Of a stretch of DNA of 50,027 nucleotides, positions 20,396-49,966 are shown piece by piece (positions within the stretch are counted from its first letter, which is position 1; each line of letters opens with the position of its first letter). Made by a program: the position numbers and the translations under genes. Under the pieces are notes generated by a model. That model was not told where the DNA came from, ran no database searches, and was given only the letters and a program-made list of their open reading frames with translations. This stretch comes from Mesobacillus subterraneus (GTDB taxonomy: Bacteria > Bacillota > Bacilli > Bacillales > Cytobacillaceae), in NCBI RefSeq assembly GCF_000934845.1, contig NZ_JXIQ01000103.1, positions 1-50,027 of the forward strand. Direction: 5' to 3'.

Positions 20396-20405
20396 AAATA
20401 TCCCT

Positions 20406-20717: not shown

Positions 20718-20721
20718 CTTG

Positions 20722-22116: not shown

Positions 22117-22129
22117 CTCCTGCCTTCTA

Positions 22130-22891: not shown

Positions 22892-22938
22892 TGTCAACCT
22901 CCTCACGCGCATAACGCCTCTTTCTAGTTGTCAAAAAA

Positions 22939-24070: not shown

Positions 24071-24087
24071 AACCCGTCCCTTTCCGC

Positions 24088-24543: not shown

Positions 24544-24588
24544 TTTCACCACTCCTAAAATATCATCTTTATCAGTCTGCCAAGATAT

Positions 24589-26652: not shown

Positions 26653-26671
26653 GTGCTCTGCACCTCCGGCC

Positions 26672-27760: not shown

Positions 27761-27767
27761 TCAACCA

Positions 27768-31826: not shown

Positions 31827-31860
31827 ATTTCTTCTCTCCTAACACTGCATACCTTGACAA

Positions 31861-32946: not shown

Positions 32947-32947
32947 T

Positions 32948-33724
32948 TTATGCTCCCCCGATTATTTCCATCAATCCGCGCATCGTCGCGAGTGTGGTCG
33001 AAACAAGATCCGATGTAACCGCCATCAGGGCACCCATTACCGCGATGAGAACCAAGAAGCTGACACCGATTTTAATCGGCAGGCCGACAACGAAAATATT
33101 CAGCTGAGGTACTGTTCTGGCTACGATTCCAAGTGCAATATCCACCAAAAACAATGTTCCCACAATAGGAAGGGACATCTGAAAAGCGATGAGGAACATT
33201 TTATTAAAGGAAAGAAGAACAAACTCTGCGACGTTCTCCTTTCCAAAGGGAATCATCAACTGATCGATCGGTATAAAATTATAGCTATAAAAGATCCCGT
33301 CCATCAGCAAGTGATGGCCATTCACCGTCAGTAGAACAAGTAAAGCGATAATCGATAAATATTGCCCCATCAACGGACTCTGAGCACCTGTTTGCGGGTC
33401 GATGACATTGGCAATTGCAAATCCCATCTGAAAATCGATAAACCCTCCGGCAATCTGGATAGCAGACATCATTAATGCTGCGATAAATCCGATGAATAAA
33501 CCAACCATGGCCTCTTTGATGATTAACATGAAATAGACACTGTCAATCTTCAACTCAGGTGCATCGATCGCTGAAAACATGATAAGCGCTAACATGAAAC
33601 CAAGACCAATTTTATGTGTTGCCGGGATTGTCCGATAGGAAAACAACGGCATCATCAGGAAGAAGGAGGTCACCCTGACAAAAATCAGCAAGAAGGTCGG
33701 AAAAGATGGAATAAAATCTATCAT
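32948..33724 (-). CDS. fliR: Flagellar export gate protein FliR
   Basis: FliR forms the export gate core with FliP and FliQ. The 258-residue protein has about six membrane helices and the conserved FIGFIAALMMSAIQIAGGFI and DFQMGFAIANVIDPQTG segments. It begins 4 nt after fliQ, and a GTTGATG-type spacing suggests coupling. Confidence 0.96.
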   Translation of the reverse strand: MIDFIPSFPTFLLIFVRVTSFFLMMPLFSYRTIPATHKIGLGFMLALIMFSAIDAPELKIDSVYFMLIIKEAMVGLFIGFIAALMMSAIQIAGGFIDFQMGFAIANVIDPQTGAQSPLMGQYLSIIALLVLLTVNGHHLLMDGIFYSYNFIPIDQLMIPFGKENVAEFVLLSFNKMFLIAFQMSLPIVGTLFLVDIALGIVARTVPQLNIFVVGLPIKIGVSFLVLIAVMGALMAVTSDLVSTTLATMRGLMEIIGGA

Positions 33725-33728
33725 TTCA

Positions 33729-33998
33729 TCAACCTACAAACCTTGTAAGATTGGAAAAAATTTCGGTTGCATAGGAAAGCATATAACTTAGCATCCAAGG
33801 TCCGAAAAAAATGACACCGATAAGGACTGCAACAATCTTCGGAACAAAAGCCAAGGTCTGTTCCTGTATTTGCGTGGTTGCCTGAAAGATGCTGACAATC
33901 AAACCTACTACCAGCGCCAATAACAGCAGTGGTCCTGATACCATTAACACTGTATATATCCCTCTTTCGGCTATGGAGATTACCGATTCTGCTGTCAT
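33729..33998 (-). CDS. fliQ: Flagellar export gate protein FliQ
   Basis: An 89-residue protein with two membrane helices. The segment LVVGLIVSIFQATTQIQEQT and the TLAFVPKI stretch identify FliQ. AGGTG lies 6 nt before the ATG. It sits between fliP and fliR. Confidence 0.96.
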   Translation of the reverse strand: MTAESVISIAERGIYTVLMVSGPLLLLALVVGLIVSIFQATTQIQEQTLAFVPKIVAVLIGVIFFGPWMLSYMLSYATEIFSNLTRFVG

Positions 33999-34010
33999 GT
34001 TCTCACCTGC

Positions 34011-34676
34011 TTAAAAACTTTGTAATAATGATTTAACTACTAAATACCAGCCATCCACCATGACAAACAAGAGTATCTTGAAAGGCAGCGAGATCATTAC
34101 TGGCGGAAGCATCATCATCCCCATTGACATGAGGACACTAGCTACTACCATATCAATCACCAGAAATGGGATAAAGATCATAAATCCGATTTGGAAAGCA
34201 GTTTTGATTTCACTGATCGCAAAAGCCGGGACCAGTGCAGTCAACGGAATTTCCTGTACCGATTTAGGAGTATCCGCCTTTGCGTATTGAAGGAATAAAG
34301 CTAGGTCCTTCTGCCTCGTCTGTGCGCTCATGAACTCTTTAAAAGGAATGGATGCTCTTTCATAAGCTTGCTCCAAATTGATTTCTTCATTAAATAAAGG
34401 CGTCAATGCCTGTTCATTCACTTCCTGGAAAGTAGGTGCCATAATGAAGAATGACAAAAACATTGCAAGGCCCACCAATACTTGGTTAGGCGGCATTTGT
34501 TGGGTGGCAAGCGCTGTTCTGACAAAGGAAAGAACAATGATGATTCTCGTAAAACTGGTCATGAGAATCAAAATTCCAGGCGCAATCGAAAGAACCGTCA
34601 GCAACAGCATCAGTTTTACGGATGTCGATACGCTGGTTGGATCTGTGCTGTTGAAAAAATTCATGAACTCATTCAT
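34011..34676 (-). CDS. fliP: Flagellar export gate protein FliP
   Basis: FliP forms the export gate pore. The 221-residue protein contains TSFTRIIIVLSFVRTALATQ, PPNQVLVGLAMFLSFFIMAP and the C-terminal MGMMMLPPVMISLPFKILLF signature. The ATG at 34676 overlaps the fliO stop by 8 nt and has AAAGGG upstream; 21 in-frame codons further upstream lie inside fliO and are not expected to be used. Confidence 0.97.
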   Translation of the reverse strand: MNEFMNFFNSTDPTSVSTSVKLMLLLTVLSIAPGILILMTSFTRIIIVLSFVRTALATQQMPPNQVLVGLAMFLSFFIMAPTFQEVNEQALTPLFNEEINLEQAYERASIPFKEFMSAQTRQKDLALFLQYAKADTPKSVQEIPLTALVPAFAISEIKTAFQIGFMIFIPFLVIDMVVASVLMSMGMMMLPPVMISLPFKILLFVMVDGWYLVVKSLLQSF

Positions 34677-35343
34677 CGTGCTGTGACCCTTTCTTTTGCA
34701 TCTCCTCAAACATCTTCCTTCGTCCGCTCGCCATGTCATTCAGCTGATGCTTCAACAAAGCGGAAAAATTGGAACTTTGGGGATCGCGGCTACGCTTCTT
34801 CGCTCTCTTTCGTAACTTAGTCAAAAGATCGCTTGGTTGGATAAGCTGTTCCATTTTACTGTTATACTCCCGAATGACTTGATCATACTCTTTTGGGTCC
34901 TCTATTTCTTTCAAAAGCTGGATATTTTCTCCCACTCCTACAATGAACAGCCGATTACCCGCCTTCACAATCTGTACAGACCTATTGCCTCCCAGACTTG
35001 TCCCTCCAAGATTCTCCACTAACTTTGAGCTTTTATTTGATAGACTCCGCTTATTGATGAATTTGAGAAGGAAATATAGTAAAGCGATGACAAAGACAGT
35101 AGCAAGGATCATTCGGACGAAATCCAAGAAACTTACCCCTACTTGTGCATTTGCTTGTGCTTTATCTGATTGATTTGCTTCGGTTTTTGCCTGGCCATCA
35201 TCACAAGCATCCGGATTTTTTATGCATTCCTGAACACTTTTATTCAGCTGCTCTGCGTCAGCCAAGGCGACTTGACTAAACAAAGCAGCTAATACGATCA
35301 GAGTGGCCGAGGCAGTTCGAATTAGTTTTAGCAATAGCCGCAC
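34669..35343 (-). CDS. fliO: Flagellar export accessory protein FliO (FliZ)
   Basis: FliO assists FliP assembly. The 224-residue product has a likely signal peptide ending at LALADA-like residues VALADA (about 24-29), a short extracytoplasmic segment with two Cys, a membrane helix (about 74-93), and a basic cytoplasmic tail containing the SLGGNRSVQIVKAGNRLFIV region. The start is uncertain: the GTG at 35343 abuts its AGAGG, while a TTG three codons later (35334) has better spacing. Confidence 0.9.
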   Translation of the reverse strand: MRLLLKLIRTASATLIVLAALFSQVALADAEQLNKSVQECIKNPDACDDGQAKTEANQSDKAQANAQVGVSFLDFVRMILATVFVIALLYFLLKFINKRSLSNKSSKLVENLGGTSLGGNRSVQIVKAGNRLFIVGVGENIQLLKEIEDPKEYDQVIREYNSKMEQLIQPSDLLTKLRKRAKKRSRDPQSSNFSALLKHQLNDMASGRRKMFEEMQKKGSQHDE

Positions 35344-35368
35344 CCTCTATAATAAATAAATAAGTCCC

Positions 35369-35731
35369 TTATCCTAATGTTTTGGAAATCGCTTCGATGA
35401 CACGGTCTGCCTGAAAAGGTTTGACGATAAAATCTTTTGCTCCCGCCTGAATGGCATCAATGACCATCGCCTGCTGGCCCATTGCTGAACACATAATGAC
35501 CTTGGCATTCGGATTGATTTTTTTAATCTCTTTAAGGGACGTGATTCCATCCATCTCAGGCATGGTAATATCCATTGTGACCAGATCTGGGTGAAATTCT
35601 TTATATTTTTCAAGTGCCTGAGCTCCATCAGCTGCTTCCGCAACCACCTCAAACCCATTCTTTGTCAAAATATCCTTGATCATCATTCTCATGAAAGCCG
35701 CGTCGTCTACGACTAAAATTTTGTTCGCCAT
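35369..35731 (-). CDS. cheY: Chemotaxis response regulator CheY
   Basis: A 120-residue single receiver domain that binds the flagellar switch when phosphorylated by CheA. Key residues are Asp9/Asp10 for Mg, phospho-acceptor Asp54 (LVTMDITMPEMDG), Ser82 and Lys104 (FIVKPF). AGGAGG precedes the ATG. It lies between fliY, whose product dephosphorylates it, and fliO. Confidence 0.97.
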   Translation of the reverse strand: MANKILVVDDAAFMRMMIKDILTKNGFEVVAEAADGAQALEKYKEFHPDLVTMDITMPEMDGITSLKEIKKINPNAKVIMCSAMGQQAMVIDAIQAGAKDFIVKPFQADRVIEAISKTLG

Positions 35732-35749
35732 TGGAATTCCTCCTGTTGA

Positions 35750-37027
35750 TTATTTCAATTTTTTAATTCGATCGCTCTGGCTGATAATATCGGAAACCCG
35801 GACTCCGAAGTTTTCATCGATGACCACTACTTCCCCTTGTGCAATCAAGCGATTGTTCACGAGAATATCAACAGGCTCCCCTGCCAGTTTGTCAAGTTCA
35901 ATGATCGATCCGGATCCTAGTTCAAGGATATCCCTTACTGAGCGTTTAGTCCTTCCCAATTCCACTGTTACCTGTAACGGGATATCAAGCAGCATAGTAA
36001 GGTTCTTTGTTTCAGCGTGCTGCCCTTGCACATTTTCGAAACTAGAAAAAACTGCCGGTTGGACAGTTGGTTGGCTTCCAGTCATCACATTGCTGCCAAA
36101 GTGCTGTGGACCCTGGGGCATCGGCTGTGGGTGATAGCCAAATCCTTGTGGCATATTTTGTTGTGCCTGGGGCTGATAATACATCTGCTCTTGCGGCTGA
36201 TATTGCGGCTGCTGAAAACCTTGCTGGTGAATTGGATTTTGCTGCTGTCCTTGTTCAAATGAATTGTTTTGTTGAATAGGAGCCTGGCTGGCCAGCGGTG
36301 TTGGCAGCACAGTCTCTTCATGCTGGACCGCTTTTGTTCCCCCAGGATTCAATAATTCATCAACAAGACTTTTCGCAAAGGACACCGGCAAAAGCTGCAT
36401 GATGTTTGAATCAATTAATTTGCCTATTTTCAAAAAGAAGGATACCTTTACTAAAAAATCATCTTCAGGTATCGAGTCTGTTCCTTCCCCTTCAGCCACA
36501 TTCAATAGATTGATAATAGGGGGCGAAATATCAACCCTCTTGCTAAATACGGTTGACATCGAGGTTGCCGCTGAACCCATCATCTGGTTCATCGCCTCTT
36601 GAACTGCACTAAGCTGGATTTCGTCGAGCAGCTCCCTTGGATTCAATCCATCACCGCCAAGCATTAAGTCGGCAATAATCGCTGCGTCACTTTGCTGGAT
36701 GACAAGCATATTGCTGCCGATAAACCCTTCCGTGTAATGAACCTGAACTGCTACATATGGATCTGGGAACTCATCCTCTAGCTTGGATTTGTGCACAACT
36801 GTAACCGTAGGTGTATTAATTTCAACCTTCTGGTTTAGCAGTGTAGACAACGCTGTAGCTGAGCTGCCAAAAGAAATATTTCCGATCTCACCAAGTGCAT
36901 CTCTCTCCATAAAAGAAAAATAATCATCTACATTAATCTCGTTTTCTGTTTCTTCCACCCCATTAGAGGTACCTCTTAAAAGCGCATCAATTTCATCTTG
37001 AGATAGCATGTCATCGCTCACCATCAT
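35750..37027 (-). CDS. fliY: Flagellar switch protein and CheY-P phosphatase FliY
   Basis: FliY replaces or complements FliN in Bacillus and removes phosphate from CheY-P. The product of about 425 residues has an N-terminal CheY-binding motif (LSQDEIDALL), a CheC-like domain with two E-x-x-N motifs (GEIGNISFG and QEAMNQMMG), a long Gln/Pro-rich linker (about 245-340) and a C-terminal SpoA domain (VTVELGRTKRSVRDILEL). The linker is richer and longer than in B. subtilis FliY (378 residues). Two adjacent ATGs (37027, 37024) and a GTG follow a GGGGGGAG site. It overlaps fliM. Confidence 0.95.
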   Translation of the reverse strand: MMVSDDMLSQDEIDALLRGTSNGVEETENEINVDDYFSFMERDALGEIGNISFGSSATALSTLLNQKVEINTPTVTVVHKSKLEDEFPDPYVAVQVHYTEGFIGSNMLVIQQSDAAIIADLMLGGDGLNPRELLDEIQLSAVQEAMNQMMGSAATSMSTVFSKRVDISPPIINLLNVAEGEGTDSIPEDDFLVKVSFFLKIGKLIDSNIMQLLPVSFAKSLVDELLNPGGTKAVQHEETVLPTPLASQAPIQQNNSFEQGQQQNPIHQQGFQQPQYQPQEQMYYQPQAQQNMPQGFGYHPQPMPQGPQHFGSNVMTGSQPTVQPAVFSSFENVQGQHAETKNLTMLLDIPLQVTVELGRTKRSVRDILELGSGSIIELDKLAGEPVDILVNNRLIAQGEVVVIDENFGVRVSDIISQSDRIKKLK

Positions 37028-38012
37028 CGTCTCCCCCCTTAAATGTGTCAAACACTTGAATGGCTAATTTTTTGTTTAGTTTCCCTGGCTGTCCTACGAA
37101 TTTAGGGATATCTCCGACTTTTATCAGTAAAGGCTGGTCAATCCGCTGATTTAATTCAATTACATCGCCGATTTCAAGCGAAAGGAAATCCTGGATCGAA
37201 ATTTCAGACGATCCTATTTCTGCAGTAACGGAAACATCAGCCTTTTGGATTTCACTTTGCAATACTGAATTTTCAATTGGCAAGCTTTGTTTCTTGTCCG
37301 ATTGCATCCAATATTTTACTGACAATTTTGGAATGATCGGTTCGAGTACTACATGCGGTATACATATATTAATCATTCCGCTTGCTTCCCCGATCGTCGT
37401 ATTTAAAGAAATGACAACGACGGTTTCATTAGGGGAAACCATCTGCAAGAACTGCGGATTGATTTCAAATTCTGATAACTGGGGATCAATATCAGAAATC
37501 GAACTCCATGCCTCCCTGAAATTTTCAAAAGCTTTTTCGAACATGTTTGACATAATTTTTGTTTCAATTTCTGTCAAACTGTCCACTTTGTTGTGACTTG
37601 CCCCCCTGCCGCCTAACAGCCGGTCCATCATGGCATAGGCAATATTTGGATTGACTTCCATGAGGATTCTGCCTTCGAGCGGTTCTACATCGAAAACATT
37701 TAAGATCGTCATCTTAGGGATCGACCGGATGAATTCTTCATAAGGAATCTGGTCTGCTGACGCTACCGCGATATTAACATATGTTCTTAATTGCGCAGAG
37801 AAAAAAGTAGTCAGCAACCTGGCAAAGTTTTCGTGAATCCGGGTTAGGCTGCGAATTTGATCCTTTGAAAAGCGTAGCGCTCTCCTGAAATCATATACTT
37901 TCACCCTTTTTTCTATTTGTTCTTTTTTTAACTCATCCGCATCCATTTCCCCTGTAGACAGGGCGGATAGCAAAGCATCAATTTCACTTTGTGATAATAC
38001 ATCTCCCGACAT
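37011..38012 (-). CDS. fliM: Flagellar motor switch protein FliM
   Basis: FliM builds the C-ring and binds CheY-P. The 333-residue protein has the N-terminal CheY-binding helix (LSQSEIDALLSAL), a CheC-like middle domain with the conserved GGRG loop (LLGGRGA) and a C-terminal SpoA domain (about 245-333). The ATG at 38012 with AGGGAGGTG upstream was chosen over a start three codons earlier. It overlaps the start of fliY. Confidence 0.97.
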   Translation of the reverse strand: MSGDVLSQSEIDALLSALSTGEMDADELKKEQIEKRVKVYDFRRALRFSKDQIRSLTRIHENFARLLTTFFSAQLRTYVNIAVASADQIPYEEFIRSIPKMTILNVFDVEPLEGRILMEVNPNIAYAMMDRLLGGRGASHNKVDSLTEIETKIMSNMFEKAFENFREAWSSISDIDPQLSEFEINPQFLQMVSPNETVVVISLNTTIGEASGMINICIPHVVLEPIIPKLSVKYWMQSDKKQSLPIENSVLQSEIQKADVSVTAEIGSSEISIQDFLSLEIGDVIELNQRIDQPLLIKVGDIPKFVGQPGKLNKKLAIQVFDTFKGGDDDGER

Positions 38013-38053
38013 TCTCTTCACCTCCCTACGATTACGGTAATATGATTCTTCTG

Positions 38054-38482
38054 TTACTGGAGGAGAGAACCTGTTATGTATACTTTTTTGATTTTTCCAT
38101 CCTGCATCAGCTCATTTAATTTCACTTTAAGCGTTTCTTCTAGGTTCATCTTGCCTTCCTTGCCTTTCAGGTCTTCTGCCTTTTTCTCGGAAAGCTCATA
38201 GATAATCAGGTTTTTCACCTGAAAATCTCTCTTTTCCAGTTCATCCTTTGCTTTCTTTCCATCTGTTTCAATTTTGAAGGAAATTTTAATGTAATCATTG
38301 GATGCAAGGTTCGTCGTTACCTCTGGTACATCTACCGAAGCTGCCAGCACCTCTTCAATACTTGGTTCTTTGGTATTATCACTAGTTTTAAGCTTCATTA
38401 CCGCTACGACGGCAACTGTACCGACGAGCAGGATGACGACCAGCATGACTGACATAATCATGACCAGTTTATTATTCTTCAT
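38054..38482 (-). CDS. fliL: Flagellar basal body protein FliL
   Basis: FliL surrounds the stator units and supports motor torque. The 142-residue protein has one N-terminal membrane helix (about 6-28) and a periplasmic-type domain with the conserved LNELMQDGKIKKVYITGSLLQ-like end (stomatin-related fold). The ATG at 38482 has GGAGG 9 nt upstream and overlaps the flbD stop by 11 nt; an upstream extension lies wholly inside flbD. Confidence 0.95.
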   Translation of the reverse strand: MKNNKLVMIMSVMLVVILLVGTVAVVAVMKLKTSDNTKEPSIEEVLAASVDVPEVTTNLASNDYIKISFKIETDGKKAKDELEKRDFQVKNLIIYELSEKKAEDLKGKEGKMNLEETLKVKLNELMQDGKIKKVYITGSLLQ

Positions 38483-38693
38483 GGTCCAGTTCCTCCACCA
38501 ACCGGCTTCCAAGCAAGCCGATACTCTGGTAATATTCCTTGATAAAGCGTACTACTTCCTTTTCACTTTCTTTAACAACATACTTCCGACCATTGGCTAA
38601 GGTAATCGTCGTGTCCGGAAAGGCTTCTATTGTCTCAATAAATAATGAATTGAGCATGAACGTTTTTCCATTTAATTTCGTCACTTTTATCAC
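38472..38693 (-). CDS. swrD: FlbD/SwrD family flagellar protein
   Basis: A small protein of 73 residues in the FlbD/YlzI family. In B. subtilis SwrD raises flagellar power for swarming. The family features are IKVTKLNGKTFMLNSLFIE and DTTITLANGRKYVVKES. The GTG at 38693 matches the family start; its Shine-Dalgarno sequence is poor, and a TTG four codons earlier is an alternative. A hairpin lies just upstream (38706-38732). Confidence 0.9.
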   Translation of the reverse strand: MIKVTKLNGKTFMLNSLFIETIEAFPDTTITLANGRKYVVKESEKEVVRFIKEYYQSIGLLGSRLVEELDHEE

Positions 38694-38705
38694 TATTATC
38701 CACAA

Positions 38706-38732
38706 GGGCTAAAAGGACTTCCCTTAAAGCCC
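38706..38732 (-). promoter_or_regulatory. Hairpin between flgE and swrD
   Basis: Two nested stems, GGGCT/AGCCC (38706-38710 with 38728-38732) and AAGG/CCTT, fold into a compact hairpin 13 nt before the weak swrD start. No T run follows. It may affect swrD translation or mRNA processing. Confidence 0.45.
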
Positions 38733-38746
38733 TGCTCCTCTCTCCT

Positions 38747-39961
38747 CTATCGTTTTAAGTTCACGAGCTCCTGAAGAATTTCATCAGATGTCGTAATGAT
38801 TCTCGTATTTGCCTGGAAACCACGTTGAGCTGTGATCATCTCGGTGAACTCCTCAGAAAGATCTACATTGGACATTTCGAGTGAACCTGCGGCGATGGAC
38901 CCACGACCTTCTCCAGGAACATTGATATTCGCTGTTCCAGAGTTAACGGATTCTTGTAATGTATTATTGCCTATCTTGGAAAGACCAGAAGGATTGCTGA
39001 ACTTAGCAAGCGCAAGTTGTCCAAGAGTCAACACAAGCCCATTTGAAAAAACTCCGTTGATTTCACCAGTTGAACCGATGTTGAAGCTTTCAAGCGCACC
39101 TTGGGTGTTGCCGTCAGGGTAGGCATTGGCATCCATGCTGCCGCCGTCTACAGTCAATTCATCAAGCGGCAATGCAACGTTAAACGGAGTAGCAGTACCT
39201 GATCCATCGTTTAGCTTCAAAGTAATATTTTGTGGCGTATTAGTCGGAATCTGTATGTTTACGGTCGTGATATTTGGATTCGGCGCGGTTGGATCAGCGA
39301 CAGGAATCGATTTATCGACAAACGAAACAGTCCAATTACCCGTTGCAGCACCATTTGCACCATTGGGCTTCAGAGTCATGTCAATCACATGATCCATTCC
39401 ATTCCCATCTACAACTTTTAACTGCTGAAGCAATTCAGAAGAACCCTTTGCATCCTCTGGGAGATTGCCCTTCATCACCAGTTCAGTCGTTTGTTTGGCT
39501 GGCAGGAGCGCATTTACGTTAACGGTAATATCTTCAAGAATGCCGTTATTCAAGGACTGCACCTTCAATCCATCCCCAGTTACTAGTGTACCATTGTCAT
39601 CCAGGTAGAAGTTTCCCGCCCGGGTATACATCTGGGATTGTCCCTGTTTTACTACAAAATAGCCATCTCCAGAAATGGCAAGATCAAGGGCGCGGCCAGT
39701 TGTTTGCAGGCTTGACTGAGTATCAATCATATCAATACTCGCGATTGTTGAGCCAAGACCCACCTGCATTGGGTTCTTTCCGCCCTTATTCTGGGTCGCA
39801 GCGCTTGCGCCAGAGATGGTTTGATTCATTGTATCTTTAAAAGTAACACGGCCTTTTTTGAAGCCGTAAGTATTTACATTGGCGATGTTGTTGCCGATGA
39901 CATCAAGTTTAGTCTGGAAATTTTTCATTCCGCTGATTCCTGAGTACATTGAACGAAGCAT
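38747..39961 (-). CDS. flgE: Flagellar hook protein FlgE
   Basis: FlgE polymerises into the hook. The 404-residue protein has the conserved rod/hook N-terminus (LRSMYSGISGMKNFQTKLDV followed by IGNNIANVNTYGFKK), a central hook domain enlarged relative to the 264-residue B. subtilis protein, and the C-terminal coiled segment (SNVDLSEEFTEMITAQRGFQ then ANTRIITTSDEILQELVNL). The ATG at 39961 has AAGGAG about 11 nt upstream; in-frame codons up to 40009 are in the leader. In older Bacillus annotations this gene is called flgG. Confidence 0.95.
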   Translation of the reverse strand: MLRSMYSGISGMKNFQTKLDVIGNNIANVNTYGFKKGRVTFKDTMNQTISGASAATQNKGGKNPMQVGLGSTIASIDMIDTQSSLQTTGRALDLAISGDGYFVVKQGQSQMYTRAGNFYLDDNGTLVTGDGLKVQSLNNGILEDITVNVNALLPAKQTTELVMKGNLPEDAKGSSELLQQLKVVDGNGMDHVIDMTLKPNGANGAATGNWTVSFVDKSIPVADPTAPNPNITTVNIQIPTNTPQNITLKLNDGSGTATPFNVALPLDELTVDGGSMDANAYPDGNTQGALESFNIGSTGEINGVFSNGLVLTLGQLALAKFSNPSGLSKIGNNTLQESVNSGTANINVPGEGRGSIAAGSLEMSNVDLSEEFTEMITAQRGFQANTRIITTSDEILQELVNLKR

Positions 39962-39988
39962 AGCTTGTCCATCTCCTTTCGATTTTAG

Positions 39989-40014
39989 GGGCTGCTTCCA
40001 TCGATCCACAGCCC
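39989..40014 (-). promoter_or_regulatory. Small hairpin in the flgE leader
   Basis: GGGCTG (39989-39994) and CAGCCC (40009-40014) can pair around a 14-nt loop, upstream of the flgE Shine-Dalgarno sequence. No T tract follows. Weak evidence only. Confidence 0.25.
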
Positions 40015-40049
40015 AGGCCTCCGTGAAGGTCCAGCCACTTGTTTAAAAT

Positions 40050-40436
40050 TTAATTTTCCATTACAATCGTTCCATTTATATTGGTGAAAATTTGCTCTGT
40101 TGCCTCCTGCCTTCCCATCGCAGTAATAACGGTGTTGTTTTTCGCACTGACAATCAATGCTGCATCTTTCAGCAGGACAAGCGAATCATTCACGCCTTTG
40201 GCCTTAGCCTGGCTGACTTTTTCCTCAATCCTGTTCCAGCGCTCCGTGGATATATTAATTCCACGCTGCTCCAGTCTTTCAGTTGCATGCTTACTGATCG
40301 TAAGACCAGTCTTTGATTGAAGGGCCGATTGCAACTGTAAGGAAAAAGCTGTTTGAGCTTTGCTGGTTTTCACAGGTTTTTGGTAAGATCTGTTAGCAGG
40401 CAGTGAATGAATGGGACGAAAATTCGTTTTATCCAT
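40050..40436 (-). CDS. Flagellar operon protein, TIGR02530 family
   Basis: A 128-residue protein of the TIGR02530 flagellar operon family, recognised by the central LTISKHATERLEQRGINIS. The N-terminus is variable. The function is unknown; its constant place between flgD and flgE suggests a role in hook assembly. The ATG at 40436 has AGGAGTGGAG just upstream; 48 in-frame codons further upstream overlap the end of flgD and were excluded. Confidence 0.85.
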   Translation of the reverse strand: MDKTNFRPIHSLPANRSYQKPVKTSKAQTAFSLQLQSALQSKTGLTISKHATERLEQRGINISTERWNRIEEKVSQAKAKGVNDSLVLLKDAALIVSAKNNTVITAMGRQEATEQIFTNINGTIVMEN

Positions 40437-40452
40437 TACTCCACTCCTAATC

Positions 40453-41082
40453 TCATTGAATTTTGGTGATTTGTGAAGATAGAATGCTTGTGTTATTCTC
40501 ATCATCCAGCAAATAAGATGTTTTGCCATTTTTAAAGTAAACAGATTGGACATTTGCTGATTTCTCTTGTTCCTTTTCATCTAAATAGGTAATCGCTTTG
40601 CCAATCAGCATGCTCGCCTGCAGAAGGTGATTTTCACTTGAAACATCCTTGATTTGTGAGATATTTGCCGGTTCTAGCTCTGTACCGTCCTCCAGTAAAA
40701 ACGTTACCACATCTTCCTTAAACTGGACGGATGCCACCCTTCCGCTTCCTTGTTCGACTGTCTCCTGCCCGTCGGTTGTTTCCACTTTATGCCATGTGAT
40801 CTCCTTGCCCACGAACTGACTATAGGAAATCATTTTGTTTTGCTGTTCTGCCTGCACAAACCTGTCAATCGACTTTCCCATATTTGTGATTTGTTCAAGC
40901 GTAGAAAAGGTTGCCATTTGGGCAATAAAATCTTTATCCTCCATTGAATTCATCGGATCCTGATTCTGAAGCTGTGTCATCAGAATTTTCAAGAAATCAT
41001 CTTTTCCAAGAATATCAGAACCTAATTTTCTGTCTTTTTGAAGATTCGATAGCAGATAAGAAGAATCAATTGAATTCACCAT
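40453..41082 (-). CDS. flgD: Flagellar hook capping protein FlgD
   Basis: FlgD is the hook cap scaffold. The 209-residue protein has the family N-terminus LGKDDFLKILMTQLQNQDPM followed by EDKDFIAQMATFSTLEQITN, then a C-terminal region resembling the FlgD Tudor/Ig-like domains. AGGAG lies 7 nt before the ATG. It lies 10 nt after fliK. Confidence 0.95.
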   Translation of the reverse strand: MVNSIDSSYLLSNLQKDRKLGSDILGKDDFLKILMTQLQNQDPMNSMEDKDFIAQMATFSTLEQITNMGKSIDRFVQAEQQNKMISYSQFVGKEITWHKVETTDGQETVEQGSGRVASVQFKEDVVTFLLEDGTELEPANISQIKDVSSENHLLQASMLIGKAITYLDEKEQEKSANVQSVYFKNGKTSYLLDDENNTSILSSQITKIQ

Positions 41083-41092
41083 TTTTTTGCTC

Positions 41093-42337
41093 CTATACTT
41101 CAGTATTTAACAGGGCTTCCTCGAAGGTAAGCGTAAAGTTTCCGTTTTCTTCGTTTTGGTCTACTTCTCTTTTGTCAGGCTGTCTTTCTTGTTGTTGTTG
41201 GGAATCTCTATTCAGGAAACGCTCTTGCTGGCTCTGCTGCTGAGATACTTCGATTCTGTCGACTGCTAGGTTTTGGGCAGCAAAGGCCTGTTTTAGCCCA
41301 TTAATTTGGGCTTCCAACGTTTCTTTTGCACTGCCGGAAGCAGTAATGATTCTGGCCATCATTGTCTCGTCTTTTTGGATTAACTCTACTCGAATGCTGC
41401 CAAGATGTTCTGGAAACAATTTAATAAATAGTTTTTGGGTTCCGCCGCTAGTCATAAATTGAGATTTTGCGAGAAGGGACTCAAATTGTTTCATTAATTG
41501 CTCTGCAGAAACAGGTCTTTCCGGACTATTCATCATCAAGGTCAGCTGTTCAGCTCGTGCCATTTGCGGGAGAAACGAAACAGACCCGGTTTGTCCATCG
41601 GTCTTACTAGCCGATCCTGTTTCTGTTAAACTAGTAGCTTCTGAGAAATGGCTGTTTTTTTCATGTAACAGGTTTAACTCCCTTGCTACCTGGGTAAAGC
41701 GATTTTGAATGGCATCATTTAGGCTACTTCGATTGTTCGTTTTTAAGAGGCTGGACAAACCTTCTTCCAGCTTCTGCATCGACTGCTTCAGTGAGGCTGC
41801 ATGCTTAGATTGATAGCCATCGACTGACTTGGACATCAGCTCATACAGTTTGAGAGCTTTAATAGTCTCAAAATCATTGTTATCAAGCTTGGCAGCAAGT
41901 TCATTTTTGGGCAATTTCGCCATTTCAGCCAGGATAGCCGTAAGAGTCGTCAGCAATCCCTCTTCCGCTCGATTTTCTGAGTTTCCCTCATTGATCGGCC
42001 ATTTCTGAACCAACAGCTGAACTTGGTCCATGCTGACTCCCAAATAGCTAAGCGCCTTGCCTAAAAGATTGTCTGAATCTGTCATCAATTTTTCCAACAG
42101 CTTTAGTCCATCCTCTAAATCCAACAGGTCGTCTTTGTTTAAAAACCCAGCCAATTCTGCAAGACTCTGCAATTCTTTCTTACCTTGGCCTAATGATTCC
42201 GCATTCTTTGCACTATTTGCTTCCAAAAGCACCGATGCCATCATTTCCGCAAAACCGCCTTTGATTTCGTTCTTGCCGGATACAGGTTGTTTCACGGCTG
42301 CGACACTAAGAACAGATCCAAGCGATCCAATTTCCAT
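41093..42337 (-). CDS. fliK: Flagellar hook-length control protein FliK
   Basis: FliK measures hook length and triggers the FlhB switch. The 414-residue protein is variable and helical through most of its length. The C-terminal hook-length domain is recognised from KLFIKLFPEHLGSIRVELIQ and the following Gln-rich segment. The ATG at 42337 is preceded by a near-perfect AAAGGAGGTGA. Confidence 0.92.
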   Translation of the reverse strand: MEIGSLGSVLSVAAVKQPVSGKNEIKGGFAEMMASVLLEANSAKNAESLGQGKKELQSLAELAGFLNKDDLLDLEDGLKLLEKLMTDSDNLLGKALSYLGVSMDQVQLLVQKWPINEGNSENRAEEGLLTTLTAILAEMAKLPKNELAAKLDNNDFETIKALKLYELMSKSVDGYQSKHAASLKQSMQKLEEGLSSLLKTNNRSSLNDAIQNRFTQVARELNLLHEKNSHFSEATSLTETGSASKTDGQTGSVSFLPQMARAEQLTLMMNSPERPVSAEQLMKQFESLLAKSQFMTSGGTQKLFIKLFPEHLGSIRVELIQKDETMMARIITASGSAKETLEAQINGLKQAFAAQNLAVDRIEVSQQQSQQERFLNRDSQQQQERQPDKREVDQNEENGNFTLTFEEALLNTEV

Positions 42338-42366
42338 CTTTTCACCTCCTTTCAAAAAAATAACTG

Positions 42367-42969
42367 TTAATTGCTTCCCGCCTTGTTCGTTAATAATTGA
42401 GTGTAATTCGCAGCTACATCTGCCGGAAGCTTTTCCAGGATCGCTGCTAATGAATCCGTCTTGATATTCGTCAGGATTTTCATCGCTTCATCTGATTTCA
42501 TTTTTGAAATAATCGATGCAGCGCTTTTAGCTGACATCGTTTCATACGTCTTGACGATTTCCTGGAAGGCTCGTTTATTCCCTTCCTTGATTGCTGTCAA
42601 TTCTTCTATCTGCGCCTGAAGCTGGCCTTTCTCGAGTTCCATTCGTTTCAGATCGGTATCCTTGCTGTCTATTTCGGACTGAAGTTGTTTGAGTTTCGCA
42701 TCACGGTCCGTGATCACGGCTTCCATACTCACTATCTGCTTTTGAAATTCCTCGACAGATGGCTGTTTATTTACTTTCACCATGGAGGAGAGGAATGGAA
42801 CATTGCTGCCGAAATCCTTTGCCGTTTGTAAAATATTGACTCCAAGAAAAGAGAGGGCAACCAAAGCCACAACAATCGAAAATAAAACTGGGATAGCTAC
42901 TACAAATATAAATTTTTGAAACTTGCTTCTCTCTTGCTGGTTGCCTTTTTCCTTCATGCTCTCCGCCAT
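42367..42969 (-). CDS. ylxF: MotE/YlxF-family flagellar protein
   Basis: A 200-residue membrane protein with one N-terminal helix (about 19-45), a long coiled coil (about 75-130), and a MgtE-N-like C-terminal domain (SAKSAASIISKMKSDEAMKI). Related MotE proteins chaperone the stator MotC-type protein; the precise role in Bacillus is not settled. AAGGTGA precedes the ATG. Its stop lies 29 nt before fliK. Confidence 0.9.
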   Translation of the reverse strand: MAESMKEKGNQQERSKFQKFIFVVAIPVLFSIVVALVALSFLGVNILQTAKDFGSNVPFLSSMVKVNKQPSVEEFQKQIVSMEAVITDRDAKLKQLQSEIDSKDTDLKRMELEKGQLQAQIEELTAIKEGNKRAFQEIVKTYETMSAKSAASIISKMKSDEAMKILTNIKTDSLAAILEKLPADVAANYTQLLTNKAGSN

Positions 42970-42973
42970 TGAA

Positions 42974-43420
42974 TCACCTTATTTCCCGGTTCATGTATTG
43001 CTGAAGTGAGACTTCATCCATCATCCTGCTCTCGGCATATTTTTCATTCGCAAGAAACTGATGGTGGTCTTTCTGTTTGATTTTTTCAAACTTTTTAACT
43101 TCCTTGTTCTTTTCCATGAGCTGTATTTGCTGAAGGTTCATTCTATTTCTCGCGTTCATTACCACCTTTTGAAAATGGGCAATCGATTTGTCCAAATTGC
43201 CGATAAAAAGTTGATGGTGACGTATTTCCTGTACCGGTAAACCACCAAGAAGCCTGTCTGACTGAAAACTCTCAAGATCCTCTTTTTTCTTTAAAAGTTC
43301 ATAAAGTTTTTCAGCTGCATCTTCAAAGTTTTTAACTGATTCTTCGTATACCGCTTGTGCCTCGTCCTTTTCTCTTGACTTGAGAGAAAGAATTTTATCA
43401 AATTTGTATTGGAAACGCAT
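42974..43420 (-). CDS. fliJ: Flagellar export chaperone FliJ
   Basis: A 148-residue helical protein that forms the central stalk of the export ATPase. It starts with the typical FQYKFDKILSLKSREKDEAQ and is an antiparallel coiled coil throughout. AAAGG lies 10-11 nt before the ATG. It is 7 nt after fliI, its partner. Confidence 0.93.
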   Translation of the reverse strand: MRFQYKFDKILSLKSREKDEAQAVYEESVKNFEDAAEKLYELLKKKEDLESFQSDRLLGGLPVQEIRHHQLFIGNLDKSIAHFQKVVMNARNRMNLQQIQLMEKNKEVKKFEKIKQKDHHQFLANEKYAESRMMDEVSLQQYMNREIR

Positions 43421-43427
43421 CGAACGA

Positions 43428-44741
43428 TCAACCTTTCTTTACAAGCTTCCATAATGCTTCTACACTCTCATCAAATGAGACTTTTTCATTTGTGCTCTGC
43501 TTCAAGAAATCCAGTATAAGAGGGTATCTCATGACGGCTTCATCGATTGGAGCTGATGTTCCTTTCTTATATGCCCCAATATTAATTAAATCTTCAGCGT
43601 TCATATAAGTGCTTACTAATTCCCTCAATCTCTCTGCTGCCTGTAGATGTTCTGGGCTTACAATATTATTCATAACTCTGCTGATGCTTTTTAGGACATT
43701 CACTGCTGGATACTGACCTTTATTGGCCAAGTCCCGATCCATTACAAAATGACCATCTAGGATTCCTCGGACTGTATCTGCGATCGGCTCATTCATATCA
43801 TCTCCATCAACAAGGACTGTGTAGAAGCCAGTGATTGACCCAAATTCATTGGTTCCTGTTCTTTCAAGAAGCCTGGAAAGGATCGCAAACACCGACGGAG
43901 TATAGCCTTTCGTCGTTGGAGGCTCGCCAACTGCAAGACCAACTTCCCGCTGGGCCATCGCCACTCGTGTAACGGAATCCATCATGAGCATGACATTAAG
44001 CCCTTTGTCGCGAAAGTATTCTGCAATTGCAGTTGCTGTATAGGCTCCTTTGATCCGCATCAATGCTGGCTGATCAGAAGTTGCCACAACGACAATCGAA
44101 CGTTTTAAACCTTCTGGACCTAAATCTCGTTCGATAAACTCCCGTACTTCTCTTCCTCGTTCACCAATCAGTCCGATGACATTTAAGTCAGCGGTAGTGT
44201 TTCTCGCAATCATTCCCAGCAAGGTGCTTTTCCCTACCCCACTACCGGCAAATATTCCTACCCGTTGCCCATTGCCTACCGTCAGCAGACTATCAATCAA
44301 TCTAACTCCCACTTCGATTGGTTCAGTGATTGGTGGCCTGCTCATAGGGTTAGGTGGATCTTGCTCTGTCAGAACCGAGGCAAGGCCTTTTGGGAGACTG
44401 GATTGATCCAATGGAACTCCCAAAGAGTCGACCACTTTCCCGATTAACCCCATTCCAGCTTTCACTTCTAATGGCTTCATGGTAGTTTCTACTAAACTCC
44501 CAGGAGAAATTTCATGAATCGAGGTATATGGCATAAGAATAATGCTTTCATCTTTAAAACCGACTACCTCTGCCTGGATTTTTCGTTTCCTTGCTGCGCC
44601 TACATGGATAAAACAAACATCTCCGATCGAGCTTTCCGGACCTTGAGATTCGATCATTAGACCGACTACCCGCTTCACCCTGCCGTAACGTTTGAAGCTA
44701 TCTAATGAGTCTACATGATTCAATAAATCCCGAGCCTTCAC
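43428..44741 (-). CDS. fliI: Flagellum-specific ATPase FliI
   Basis: FliI powers loading of export substrates. The 437-residue protein resembles the F1 beta subunit, with Walker A GSGVGKST (166-173), the signature GLIGERGREVREFIERDLG and the Walker B VMLMMDSVTR-like LNVMLMMDS. The start is GTG at 44741, overlapping the fliH stop by four bases (GTGA). Confidence 0.98.
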   Translation of the reverse strand: MKARDLLNHVDSLDSFKRYGRVKRVVGLMIESQGPESSIGDVCFIHVGAARKRKIQAEVVGFKDESIILMPYTSIHEISPGSLVETTMKPLEVKAGMGLIGKVVDSLGVPLDQSSLPKGLASVLTEQDPPNPMSRPPITEPIEVGVRLIDSLLTVGNGQRVGIFAGSGVGKSTLLGMIARNTTADLNVIGLIGERGREVREFIERDLGPEGLKRSIVVVATSDQPALMRIKGAYTATAIAEYFRDKGLNVMLMMDSVTRVAMAQREVGLAVGEPPTTKGYTPSVFAILSRLLERTGTNEFGSITGFYTVLVDGDDMNEPIADTVRGILDGHFVMDRDLANKGQYPAVNVLKSISRVMNNIVSPEHLQAAERLRELVSTYMNAEDLINIGAYKKGTSAPIDEAVMRYPLILDFLKQSTNEKVSFDESVEALWKLVKKG

Positions 44742-45517
44742 TCTAGATCACTCTCCAAAATCTCAAACAGTTTCGTCTTAATTTCCTCCAATTGGCTATC
44801 CACACTGGCATCCATCCTGCCATTTTCTGATTCAATTATGCAGGAGGATTCGATCAGTCCATCATCTGGGTAGATGTAGAAGACTATCTCTTTTGGAAAC
44901 ATCGCGATTAATTCTTCTTTGTGGCTAAGCAATTCCTGATAATGATTAGGATGGACATGAAGCTGAATGTCCTTATAATCCCTTGCATTTTTCAACGCAG
45001 TTTTAACAAGCGGGAGGAAGCCTTCATCTGCTGTCAGTTTCTCTCCGATGATTTTGCCTGCGATTGTCACACCAAGGTCGAGAATTACTTTTTCTGATGA
45101 ATCGATATGATTCTGGTAATCCTGTTTTGCGGCTTGCACGATTTGTTGGGCAAACATTATTGACTGTTGATATTCCTCGTATCCTTGATTTCTGCCGTCT
45201 TGATACCCTTGGTCAAAACCAGCCTGCCTGGATTCTTCCGCAAGAATCTGCTTTTGCTCCTCCCAATCCTGCCTTTCTAATTGAACTTGCTTCCTGGTGA
45301 ATTCGGCTTCCTCTATCGCCTGCGAAACAATCCTTTTTGCTTCCATTTCAGCATCGTCCAGGATTCTCTTCCTCTCATCTTCTGTATGGGGGAATACAGA
45401 AGATGCCGTTTTTTCATCGGTAGAAGTATCTAGCATTCTAATGGAAATGACTTTCTTTTCTGGGGGCAAATCACTACTAGTAAACTGGGATTTAATTAGT
45501 CTAGACAATGATATCAT
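44738..45517 (-). CDS. fliH: Flagellar export ATPase regulator FliH
   Basis: FliH holds FliI in check and links it to the C-ring. The 259-residue protein has an N-terminal basic region, a long coiled coil with a short GxxxG series (GFDQGYQDGRNQGYEEY, about 115-131), and a conserved C-terminal domain. The ATG at 45517 lies within the end of fliG (17-nt overlap); GGAGG is only 2 nt before it, so a TTG three codons later (45508) may be used instead. In-frame sequence up to 45607 lies inside fliG and is excluded. Confidence 0.92.
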   Translation of the reverse strand: MISLSRLIKSQFTSSDLPPEKKVISIRMLDTSTDEKTASSVFPHTEDERKRILDDAEMEAKRIVSQAIEEAEFTRKQVQLERQDWEEQKQILAEESRQAGFDQGYQDGRNQGYEEYQQSIMFAQQIVQAAKQDYQNHIDSSEKVILDLGVTIAGKIIGEKLTADEGFLPLVKTALKNARDYKDIQLHVHPNHYQELLSHKEELIAMFPKEIVFYIYPDDGLIESSCIIESENGRMDASVDSQLEEIKTKLFEILESDLE

Positions 45518-46514
45518 CCCCTCCGCCGCGGGCAACGACGATTTCACCAGCTTCTTCCAGACGGCGAATGATGGCGACAATCCTTGATTGCGCCTCTTCG
45601 ACATCACGCAGTCTTACAGGGCCCATGAATTCCATTTCTTCTTGGAAAGTTTCTACCATCCGTTTAGACATATTTTTATAGACGATTTCCTTCACTTCAT
45701 CACTTGAGACTTTAAGAGCAAGCAAGAGATCCTCGTTTTCACAATCTCGGATTACTCGTTGGATTGCACGATTATCAAGAGTAACAATATCTTCAAATAC
45801 GAACATCCGCTTTTTGATTTCCTCGGCAAGTTCAGGATCCTGGATTTCCAGTGAATCAAGAATTGTTCGTTCAGTTGCTCGGTCTACCCCGTTCAAGACA
45901 TCCACTACCGCCTCGATTCCGCCTGTTTGCGTATAATCTTGAGTAACAGTAGCTGACAGTTTTCTTTCCAGAATTTGTTCCACTTCATTTATGATTTCAG
46001 GGGAAGTACTATCCATCACAGCAATTCGGCGGGCAATATCCGCTTGTACTTCCTGCGGCAATTCAGAAAGAATCTGTCCGGCCTGTGCTGAGTCCAAATA
46101 AGAGAGAACCAATGCGATTGTTTGCGGGTGCTCATTTTGGATAAAATTAAGAATCTGGCCAGGATCTGCTTTTCGGGCGAAATCAAACGGGCGTACTTGC
46201 AGGGATGAAGTCAATCTATTAATGATCACCGCTGCCTGATCGGTCCCTAATGCTTTTTCCAATACCGTTTTCGCATAGCCGATTCCACCTTGGGTAATAT
46301 AGTCCTGTGCTAGCGCAATGCTATGAAACTCTTCAAGAATTTCTTCTTTTGCCAGAGAGTCCACTTTTTTTACACCTGATATTTCAAGTGTAAGCTTCTC
46401 GATTTCTTCTTCACTTAAATGCTTGTAAATGGAAGCAGAGACATCTGGTCCAAGCGAGATCAGGAGGATGGCTGCCTTCTGTTTTCCTGTTAATTCTTTT
46501 TGATCTTTCCTCAT
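45501..46514 (-). CDS. fliG: Flagellar motor switch protein FliG
   Basis: FliG transmits torque from the stators to the rotor. The 337-residue protein has an N-terminal domain that binds FliF, a middle ARM domain with the EHPQTIALVLSYL motif that binds FliM, and a C-terminal torque domain with the charged ridge (about 270-310). AGGGGGG precedes the ATG. It lies 12 nt after fliF. Confidence 0.98.
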   Translation of the reverse strand: MRKDQKELTGKQKAAILLISLGPDVSASIYKHLSEEEIEKLTLEISGVKKVDSLAKEEILEEFHSIALAQDYITQGGIGYAKTVLEKALGTDQAAVIINRLTSSLQVRPFDFARKADPGQILNFIQNEHPQTIALVLSYLDSAQAGQILSELPQEVQADIARRIAVMDSTSPEIINEVEQILERKLSATVTQDYTQTGGIEAVVDVLNGVDRATERTILDSLEIQDPELAEEIKKRMFVFEDIVTLDNRAIQRVIRDCENEDLLLALKVSSDEVKEIVYKNMSKRMVETFQEEMEFMGPVRLRDVEEAQSRIVAIIRRLEEAGEIVVARGGGDDIIV

Positions 46515-46526
46515 TGCTTGACCCCC

Positions 46527-48119
46527 CTAGTCCTCAGAAATCCATGTCCGTAATAGCTTCGCAAAATCCTCTGGCTTTTCTTTTGCCATTTTTTCGAGCT
46601 GCTTTTTCTTCATTGTACCTTCTGTTTCCAATTCCTTGTTTACATCAGGAACATGAATTGGTTCAAGCTGTTCTTCATAAACAAACTCTTCTTCTACTTT
46701 GTTCTTTCTTGCTCTTAAGAACAGAAGCAACAGGGTCACGATAGCCGCAAGCAACAATCCGCCGATAAGGTATACCCACCAAGGCAATTTTTGGACAACC
46801 TGTTGATCAAAAGCAATTTTCCCATTAAATGGCTGAACAGAGACGACTACCTTCTCCTTGATCAACTCATCTGTCAACGGTGTTCCAAGAACGTCTTTAT
46901 CAATTGTCGTCCTTATAATCGTTCCGAGGATTTTGGTTATATCATCCCTCCTATCCTGAGGAAGAGAAGTTGGGTCATCAGGAGTCGGAGGTTCTACCAT
47001 CACCTGAATGCCCAAATCCCTCACCTTGTAAGGACTCTCTGTGATTTCTTTTTTAATTCTATTTACTTCATTATTGATCGTTTCTTCTACTTTTTCATAA
47101 TCTCCGTTCCCCGTCGCTCCCTCAAGATATTGGGAACCAGTCGTATCAGCAGGATTGCCTCCTGCTGGAACCCCTCCGGCCTGATTTGCGTTGCCAGTAA
47201 ACGTCTCCGTAATCCGCTGTGCACTAATGGCGATGCCTTCCATATTTTCTTTATCAACGGGTTCAACAATGTTTTCTACCCTGTTTTCTTGGGTAAAATC
47301 AATATCAGCAGTTACTGAAACAACGACTTTATCATGACCCATAAGTGTTCCGAGCATGTTTTGGACTTGTCTTTGAACATCCCTTTCAATTTGTTGCTTT
47401 ATTTCATGCTGTGAAGCAAATGTAGCACCACTGGAACTATTTTCATTTTTTAAATCAAAATACTCAAAAAACTGATTCATAATGACGATATTATCAGTAG
47501 GAAGATTGGGAACACTTTTTGCTACTAGATGGTAAAGAGCTGTAATTTGTTCTTCCTTGAATTGATAACCAGGACTCGTATTGAGGACGATGGATGCCGA
47601 AGCCGGTTCGGCATTATCACTTACAAATATTCCTTTTTCCGGAAGGTTTATCATTACTTTGGCGTCATTGACCCCATCGATTCCTTTCATCAAATTTGCC
47701 AATTCCGTCTGCATGGCTTCCAGCTTGAGCACATTGAACTCATTATCTGTCATGCCCATGCCTGCGTTCTGGCTAAAAAAGGAATAATCAATGCTTCCTG
47801 ACTTTGGAATTCCTTCAGCAGCCAGTTCTACCTTCAGCGTATCGACTGACTATTCGGGAACCATGATGGTCTTTCCGTCATCCGTTATTTCTGATTTAAT
47901 ACCCCTGGCATCCAGACTTTGTTTGATTGTTCCTGTCTCGGCGGGTGTTAAATTGCTATAAAGTGGCACTAAGGAAGGCTTTGTTGAAAAAATAGCGGTG
48001 AGACCAGCAACGGCGAAAACAAAGAAAATAGATGCCAAAATACTTATTTTTTGTTTTCTGGTTCGCCCGAGCCAGAAATCCTTCATTGTATGTATATACT
48101 TTTGAACGGTTTCTTTCAT
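46527..48119 (-). pseudogene. fliF: Flagellar MS-ring protein FliF with an in-frame amber codon
   Basis: FliF forms the membrane-embedded MS ring on which the basal body is built. The reading frame from the ATG at 48119 (CGGGGG upstream) is interrupted at codon 90 by TAG (47852-47850), then continues in the same frame to 46527. The interruption falls between VPE and SVDTLKVELAAEGIPKSGSI, both conserved FliF sequence, so there is no frameshift or loss. Read through, the protein has 530 residues, close to the usual length. It has a first membrane helix (about 25-45), ring-building domains, a second helix (about 447-469) and a FliG-binding C-terminus (EKPEDFAKLLRTWISED). Strictly read, only an 89-residue fragment is made. 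Explanations: a point mutation, suppression, or a sequencing error. Confidence 0.9.
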
Positions 48120-48188
48120 TTCAATCCCCCGGTTATTATGTCTCTTCTTTTATACAGCTAATAACCGATTAGTTTTTAGCCAATAATA

Positions 48189-48500
48189 TTAAACTTGCAT
48201 TCTCATCATTTCTTGGTATGCTTCGATCACTTTGTTTCTGACTTCCAGGGTTCCCTGTAGGGTAATGCTTGCTTTTTGGCTTGCAATCATCACCTGATGA
48301 AGGTCAATATTTTCACCACGGGCTAACTTTTCGGTCAGCACATCAGATTGAAGCTGGGATTTATTTACATTTTCAATTGTTTGCTTAAGTACGGACGAAA
48401 AACTTTTCTGCGCTTCGTATGGTGTAGATGTGGGAGTAGGACCCTTTGTTTCAAACGGCTTGACCATTTGGGTTACTGAATTAATTCCGGCAGTATTCAT
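48189..48500 (-). CDS. fliE: Flagellar hook-basal body protein FliE
   Basis: FliE joins the MS ring to the rod. The 103-residue protein has the family C-terminus LHQVMIASQKASITLQGTLE followed by VRNKVIEAYQEMMRMQV. AAGGAGAG precedes the ATG. It lies between flgC and fliF. Confidence 0.96.
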   Translation of the reverse strand: MNTAGINSVTQMVKPFETKGPTPTSTPYEAQKSFSSVLKQTIENVNKSQLQSDVLTEKLARGENIDLHQVMIASQKASITLQGTLEVRNKVIEAYQEMMRMQV

Positions 48501-48512
48501 TGCGTTCTCTCC

Positions 48513-48962
48513 TTACTTTCCAATTTCAAGTGCTTTCATCATCATTCCTTTAGAGGCGTTAAAAACTGTCACGTTTGCTTCATATGATCGAGTGGCACTT
48601 ATTAAGTCGACCATCTCCCTTAATGGATCTACATTGGGATAGGCAACATAGCCATCCGCATCGGCATCGGGATGCTCTGGATCATAAACCATTTTGAGCG
48701 GATTTTCTCTGTCTTCAGCGATTCTTGTTACTTTCACTCCATTGCCAGCTCCGGAGCTGTCTGTATTTCCGATTGCTTTATTAAGAAATGAAGAGAAGCT
48801 GCCTTCCTTTGGCTCCATGACAACCATCTTCCGGCGATAAGGCTCTCCATTCACACCTCTTGTCGAATCAACATTGGCCATATTGGAGGAAATGACGTCC
48901 ATTCTCAGACGCTGTGCTGTTAACGCAGATGCAGTCGTGTCCATGCTATGAAAGATTGTCAT
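48513..48962 (-). CDS. flgC: Flagellar rod protein FlgC
   Basis: A proximal rod subunit. The 149-residue protein shows the rod N-terminal motif (ASALTAQRLRMDVISSNMAN), the YRRKMVVMEP segment, and the C-terminal MVDLISATRSYEANVTVFNA. It begins 2 nt after flgB and is probably translationally coupled to it. Confidence 0.97.
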   Translation of the reverse strand: MTIFHSMDTTASALTAQRLRMDVISSNMANVDSTRGVNGEPYRRKMVVMEPKEGSFSSFLNKAIGNTDSSGAGNGVKVTRIAEDRENPLKMVYDPEHPDADADGYVAYPNVDPLREMVDLISATRSYEANVTVFNASKGMMMKALEIGK

Positions 48963-48964
48963 AC

Positions 48965-49360
48965 TTACCTACCTCCCCTAATGACCGATTGGAGCGTATT
49001 GAATTTCCCATTGATCCTCTCAGTCACTGCATTATAGTAGATTTGATTTGTTGCCATATCGGCCATTTCTTTATCCAAATCAACGCTATTCCCATTTTCG
49101 TTATAATTAACGTTTTGTTTGTTAATGATGCCAGGCAAACGGCTTGGCCTGCTGAAGAAATCATAATGTCGCGAATCCGATTTATTCGCTTCAAAGGATT
49201 GTTCCATTACATCCTGGAATACCGCCTTGAATGACACATCCTTTGCTTTATAGTTCGGTGTATCAACATTAGCAATATTTTGCGAGATTACTTTCTGCTT
49301 TGCTGAAGAGTAGTCCAGCGCATGTTCGAGCGTCGATATTGTATTTGAAAACAAATTCAT
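48965..49360 (-). CDS. flgB: Flagellar rod protein FlgB
   Basis: A proximal rod subunit and first gene of the fla/che operon. The 131-residue protein has the rod motif LDYSSAKQKVISQNIANVDT with PNYKAKDVSF, and the C-terminal ADMATNQIYYNAVTERINGK. GAGAGGTG lies 5 nt before the ATG. The candidate operon promoter is 60-90 nt upstream. Confidence 0.97.
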   Translation of the reverse strand: MNLFSNTISTLEHALDYSSAKQKVISQNIANVDTPNYKAKDVSFKAVFQDVMEQSFEANKSDSRHYDFFSRPSRLPGIINKQNVNYNENGNSVDLDKEMADMATNQIYYNAVTERINGKFNTLQSVIRGGR

Positions 49361-49420
49361 TTTTGCACCTCTCGTTTACAAAACAGGATTTTTTTTGCTG
49401 AATTTTGTAATTCTTTGGCG

Positions 49421-49449
49421 AATATCGTCAATCTACCCCTAATTGTAAA
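49421..49449 (-). promoter_or_regulatory. Candidate sigma-A promoter of the fla/che operon
   Basis: On the minus strand TTTACA (49449-49444) is followed after exactly 17 nt by GATATT (49426-49421). Its -10 overlaps GACGATAT (49429-49422), one base from the sigma-D -10 consensus GCCGATAT, though no good sigma-D -35 box lies at the right distance. Confidence 0.55.
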
Positions 49450-49814
49450 GAATCTGAAATAATATGTCTATGTAGTTTCCGTTAATTTTTATCATGCATA
49501 ATGCTCATTTTATAAAACAGGATAAAAGACCTATACACCTACTTAACCTTAATGTAGTTATTTTACGCCTGTTTTTAGATTGTGTTTTTAGTATAACTAG
49601 GTAGAATGAATCAATCCGCATTCTTATATCCCTGTTTTTTTAGTCTACTTACCTATTTCTTTTTGCTTATTTTTTGCTTTTTTAGCTGGATATGTCTGCC
49701 TAATCGTTTTATTTTTTTGTAAATATAACGAAATATTTTTGTAACACTGATGCTTCTCTATTCATTCATTTTTAGGATAAATAAAACACCGAAATGAACG
49801 GAACTGGAAAAGTT

Positions 49815-49844
49815 ACAAGAAAAACCGGGCAAACTGTGCCTGGT
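49815..49844 (-). terminator. Terminator of the unseen upstream gene
   Basis: ACCGGGC (49824-49830) pairs with GCCTGGT (49838-49844), one G-U pair, around a 7-nt loop. On the minus strand TTTTTCTT follows; on the plus strand a CCTTTTTT run also follows, so it may work in both directions. Confidence 0.75.
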
Positions 49845-49966
49845 CCTTTTTTGGTTTGGATGATCATCGAGGCTGTTGATTGGTTTTCACTAAATCCATA
49901 CAGGAAATTGGAAATCACAACTCCTCAAATATTATATGTTTCGTGGTTTTTTCCTAAAACGACTGC

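Follow-up and report, generated by a model that had tools for sequence, protein, structure and literature searches.

An in-frame amber codon in fliF of a Mesobacillus draft genome, probably a very recent nonsense mutation

The MS ring of the bacterial flagellum, and with it the basal body, is built only in the presence of FliF. Mutations in the corresponding gene have been encountered in culture: a study on Vibrio cholerae describes many flagellar genes mutated in cultures, fliF among them, with one such gene per isolate (PMC10654082). Here, we analysed a stretch of 50,027 nucleotides from Mesobacillus subterraneus (hereafter the window), which is one whole contig of a draft genome of 3.9 Mb in 208 contigs, and in which fliF carries an internal stop codon.

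An interrupted fliF and the aligned codon in relatives

The gene and the pieces into which the stop divides it are as follows.

46527..48119, minus strand: fliF, gene of the MS-ring protein, 531 codons with one internal TAG (TIGR00206, 427.9 bits over 1-554/555)
47850..47852, minus strand (read 47852-47850): in-frame TAG, codon 90 of 531 (direct reading; sense codon in 100/100 relative rows)
47853..48119, minus strand: translatable N-terminal piece of 89 aa (ORF list; TIGR00206, 49.6 bits, profile 1-90)
46527..47759, minus strand: open frame of 410 aa starting at codon 121, the first ATG after the stop (ORF list; TIGR00206, 323.2 bits, profile 122-554)

Read through the TAG, the whole frame matches the fliF family model TIGR00206 over positions 1-554 of its 555, with a score of 427.9 bits for a curated cut-off of 129.75. 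This is the single match to the family in the genome, and the gene occupies its place in the flagellar operon between fliE (TIGR00205) and fliG (TIGR00207). Direct reading of the minus strand at 47852-47850 bears out the original prediction that codon 90 is TAG. The same holds for its count of 30 open codons before the next Met (30 sense codons, the next ATG being codon 121) and for its statement that FliF sequence flanks the stop with the frame kept, since the TIGR00206 match spans the TAG and both pieces also match separately. Past the TAG, the frame is open to the normal gene end, and the TAG is the sole lesion in fliF. The stretch following codon 120, used as a query for structure matches, aligns with residues 134-315 of the FliF ring chain 6scn; as this query covers the part after codon 120 only, it says nothing on what the 89-aa piece lacks. 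That piece itself had no match among PDB sequences at E 0.1.

Then, we compared fliF with its relatives, using 20 further genomes of the genus in the search set and a search with a FliF fragment that kept 80 of 96 relatives and from which own-genome records may be missing. The first eight loci matched by this fragment share 84-91% identity and suggest a Mesobacillus host. Their records bear the names Mesobacillus, Bacillus sp., Cytobacillus or Chryseobacterium, of which the last two are presumably wrong. At the position aligned with codon 90, not one of the 100 relative rows shows a stop; each carries a sense codon, for E in 76 rows, for Q in 12, for D in 9 and for G, K and A in one row each. 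These rows comprise 98 loci with near full-length matches and the damaged copies of two genus genomes, G010 and G001; as the collections overlap, 86 of the 98 are distinct, and among the residues listed for these 86 sequences are E 63, Q 11, D 9, A 1 and G 1. The comparison with closely related genomes that had been proposed with the original prediction thus yields TAG in 0/100 rows, and the stop is not conserved. As every row can be translated at this codon, the open frame beyond the TAG is not a product of chance. Within the genus, fliF is neither split nor interrupted by a stop in 18 of the 20 relatives, the two exceptions being the least complete assemblies: G010 (66% complete) has a frame break together with two TGA codons, including one at codon 9, and G001 (87% complete) has frame breaks.

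Constraint on the frame and the reading of the codon

At 3 of its 530 positions, stop included, the FliF sequence of the strain departs from every residue seen in the 86 distinct relatives; among the relatives themselves, a sequence has on average 6.4 positions with an otherwise unseen residue. As such residues are found, besides the stop, at only 2/530 positions, the frame appears to have been constrained until very recently. Against nine relative sequences, some of which are the same genome taken from two collections, dN/dS ranges from 0.024 to 0.084. The ratio is 0.076-0.084 between the strain and its two closest relatives and 0.024-0.049 among relatives (where computable and non-zero); over codons 1-89 it reaches 0.25-0.27 between the strain and the two closest. 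Several of the dS values exceed 1.5 and are near saturation, which makes the ratios concerned rough. The raised dN/dS of the strain's own gene may point to a degree of relaxation preceding the stop.

An older decay of fliF was considered and rejected, since nearly all of its residues are also present in relatives and 9 of the 46 other window genes change more per codon. On the strain's own branch, amino-acid change in fliF amounts to 0.066 per codon (stop counted), and higher values are found for example in fliO (0.120), ylxF (0.118) and fliJ (0.088); in this comparison, proS was covered over 297 of its 567 codons only. There being no clear drift after the stop, the change would be either very recent or not real. 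The gene combines a single disabling change, a constrained remainder and sense codons in the relatives, as in a recent nonsense pseudogene. Our preferred explanation, to which we give a probability of roughly 0.6, is that one nonsense mutation arose very recently in this Mesobacillus strain, in a fliF that is well kept in all other respects.

We also considered whether the codon might be read in another way. Of 48 window genes, 8 (fliF among them) end in TAG, at C-termini common to four relatives (for cheW, the terminator is TAA in two of these four). UAG is thus neither rare nor absent as a terminator (8/48), and the stop is conserved at this site in none of the relatives (0/100 rows). Because TAG is an ordinary terminator here and no relative has it at codon 90, a use of UAG as a sense codon appears unlikely. 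No CUA anticodon was found among the 20 tRNAs typed by ARAGORN, out of 23 tRNA places of which three, at contig ends, stayed untyped; 150 of 182 candidates were scored, and the set is incomplete, as several amino acids are missing from it. Amber suppression or programmed read-through, yielding some full-length FliF, would fit a frame that is kept and constrained past the stop; a very recent mutation accounts for this constraint equally well. The relatives and the terminators with C-termini shared among relatives speak against suppression or read-through, which we hold to be improbable. Still harder to credit is a strain-specific amber suppressor, encoded in an unassembled part of the genome, that would read the TAG and set the number of flagella through inefficient read-through of fliF. 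Of the three explanations offered with the original prediction, two are compatible with the observed constraint, namely a very recent loss of function by mutation and an error in base calling; the third, amber suppression or recoding, is disfavoured by the terminators and the relatives.

Translation might also restart at codon 121, where a 410-aa open frame begins, and give a partly working FliF. A bare estimate of the Shine-Dalgarno duplex, computed with an assumed 16S tail, is however weak for codons 121 and 123 (-5.2, vs. -9.0 for the real fliF start). Moreover, the product would be devoid of the first 120 residues, which presumably include the first transmembrane helix. We agree with the earlier view that no good Shine-Dalgarno sequence precedes the downstream ATGs and, from this same estimate, that a restart at codon 121 is unlikely; a partly working protein made in this way seems very improbable to us.

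Other motility genes and the quality of the assembly

The surroundings of fliF comprise two further features.

19841..49360, minus strand: fla/che gene cluster around fliF, other genes open (family search for fliE, fliF, fliG and fliI)
49361..49544, minus strand: leader preceding flgB, with strong conservation in four relatives (blastn and alignment)

Apart from the four genes searched by family, the fla/che genes bear names that we assume from the gene order of Bacillus subtilis. Among the 52 window genes checked, 48 were examined by frame (47 open, fliF not), and four small ones (ylxP, ylxR, fliQ and flbD) are open by comparison with the relative G007. Thus, 51 other window genes are open, as expected from the earlier claim of an otherwise intact operon, and the promoter in the leader before flgB would be kept as well. 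Outside the window, motA, motB, flgK, flgL, fliW, csrA, fliD, fliS and two rod-protein genes are open, and so are the genes that we take, from their position, to be flgM, flgN, flaG and fliT. Among the flagellar genes checked (52 genes in the window, about a dozen elsewhere), fliF is the only one found broken.

A truncation of the flagellin gene hag was examined as a second motility lesion and rejected. In this gene (L149, G000:C65, 1483-3375), the reading frame stops after residue 477 and the missing C-terminus is encoded some 350 bases downstream; a group I intron (RF00028, 90.6 bits) lies between them at 2905-3253, near the 3' end, and the 3' exon follows, splicing being assumed. In searches of 21 whole genomes of the genus, that of the strain among them, 8 contain the intron DNA with at least 88% identity, 6 have weaker matches only and 7 have none. 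Flagellin introns are reported from thermophilic Bacillus (PMC3984707). Directly after hag, on the opposite strand and outside the intron, lies a gene for a LAGLIDADG endonuclease (PF03161, 1.6e-27; L149, 3378-4337, minus strand), which may be the homing enzyme of the intron.

The right end of the window (49808-50027) runs into a dispersed repeat: the genome contains 96 matches to the last 648 bases, the self-match counted. Elsewhere, this repeat is often in tandem with a spacing of about 53 bases; no tandem copy was found at the window's own end. It probably caused the contig break. In addition, the two flagellar contigs L148 and L149 have the same short sequence, in translation, at their right ends, apparently a further dispersed repeat.

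To evaluate the frequency of broken genes in the assembly, we compared 133 genes (42,751 codons) with G007, keeping only genes at least 70% identical to it; the filters applied may overlook a break in the final 15% of a gene. The contig C8 was in the comparison database, yet it was the best match of no counted gene; a search for its counterpart gave at most 71% identity among the larger matches. Eight genes were flagged, and after reading of the alignments two were counted as truly broken, i.e. fliF and a gene encoding an MFS transporter. We ascribe the other six to the choice of ORF or to unequal lengths. In three of them the starts differ, in one a TAA falls five codons short of the relative's end, and one is an antisense frame; in the last, the strain's protein has 254 residues where G007 has a frame of 575, which probably reflects a fusion or an extension on the G007 side. 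The MFS transporter gene (L151, G000:C68, about 33274-34083) differs from G007 by a TAG and by frame shifts, and is either a decayed pseudogene or a cluster of errors. With only two truly broken genes out of 133, the assembly is not riddled with stops.

These counts bear on the possibility of a base-calling or assembly error, in which case fliF would be intact and the strain motile. When single-base changes are introduced at random in 47 window genes, 4.24% of them create a stop, so one false stop in the 42,751 sampled codons needs about 1.8e-4 substitution errors per base. Such a rate is high for a good draft, yet not impossible for this one. It would suffice for one false stop in the sample, and a draft in 208 contigs, the broken appearance of fliF in 2/20 genus relatives (G010 and G001), as in poor assemblies, and the lack of any other checked flagellar gene pointing to real motility decay all fit an error. 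On the other hand, good short-read drafts typically have an error rate of about 1e-5 per base, at which about 0.05 such stops are predicted in the sample, and the MFS transporter gene, which has several lesions, is the one gene besides fliF that was judged broken in the sample of 133. We consider an error possible, though on the doubtful side.

Expected consequences and comparison with known systems

Under a very recent nonsense mutation, translation would end at residue 89, leaving most of FliF unmade. Without FliF, no MS ring would form and hence no basal body is expected; the strain would then have no flagella and be unable to swim, with its downstream genes still open. We infer that the TAG base is real, that full-length FliF is absent and that motility is lost. 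On our analysis, a null mutation of fliF would be of a kind that culture can select. Most likely, the stop in fliF is an ordinary recent mutation or a sequencing error rather than a novel mode of decoding. If real, it is a further example of a flagellar gene set that is open but for one broken motility gene. It also calls for caution: were this genome taken as the reference of its species, a single base would lead to the prediction of a non-motile organism. The accessible parts of the literature on premature stop or nonsense codons in fliF, flagellar read-through, Mesobacillus motility and flagellin introns gave nothing on this gene or strain.

Compared with known FliF, the flagellar M-ring protein (TIGR00206; PDB 6scn and others), homology is full-length across the read-through frame, and the gene differs by one in-frame TAG at codon 90. 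The likeness to the V. cholerae mutants from starvation cultures lies in one lesion in one flagellar gene, fliF included (PMC10654082). The fliF lesion described there is a 1-bp deletion, whereas a TAG codon is found here; moreover, the V. cholerae isolates were genome-sequenced and their motility was tested, whereas the present change is known from one assembly alone.
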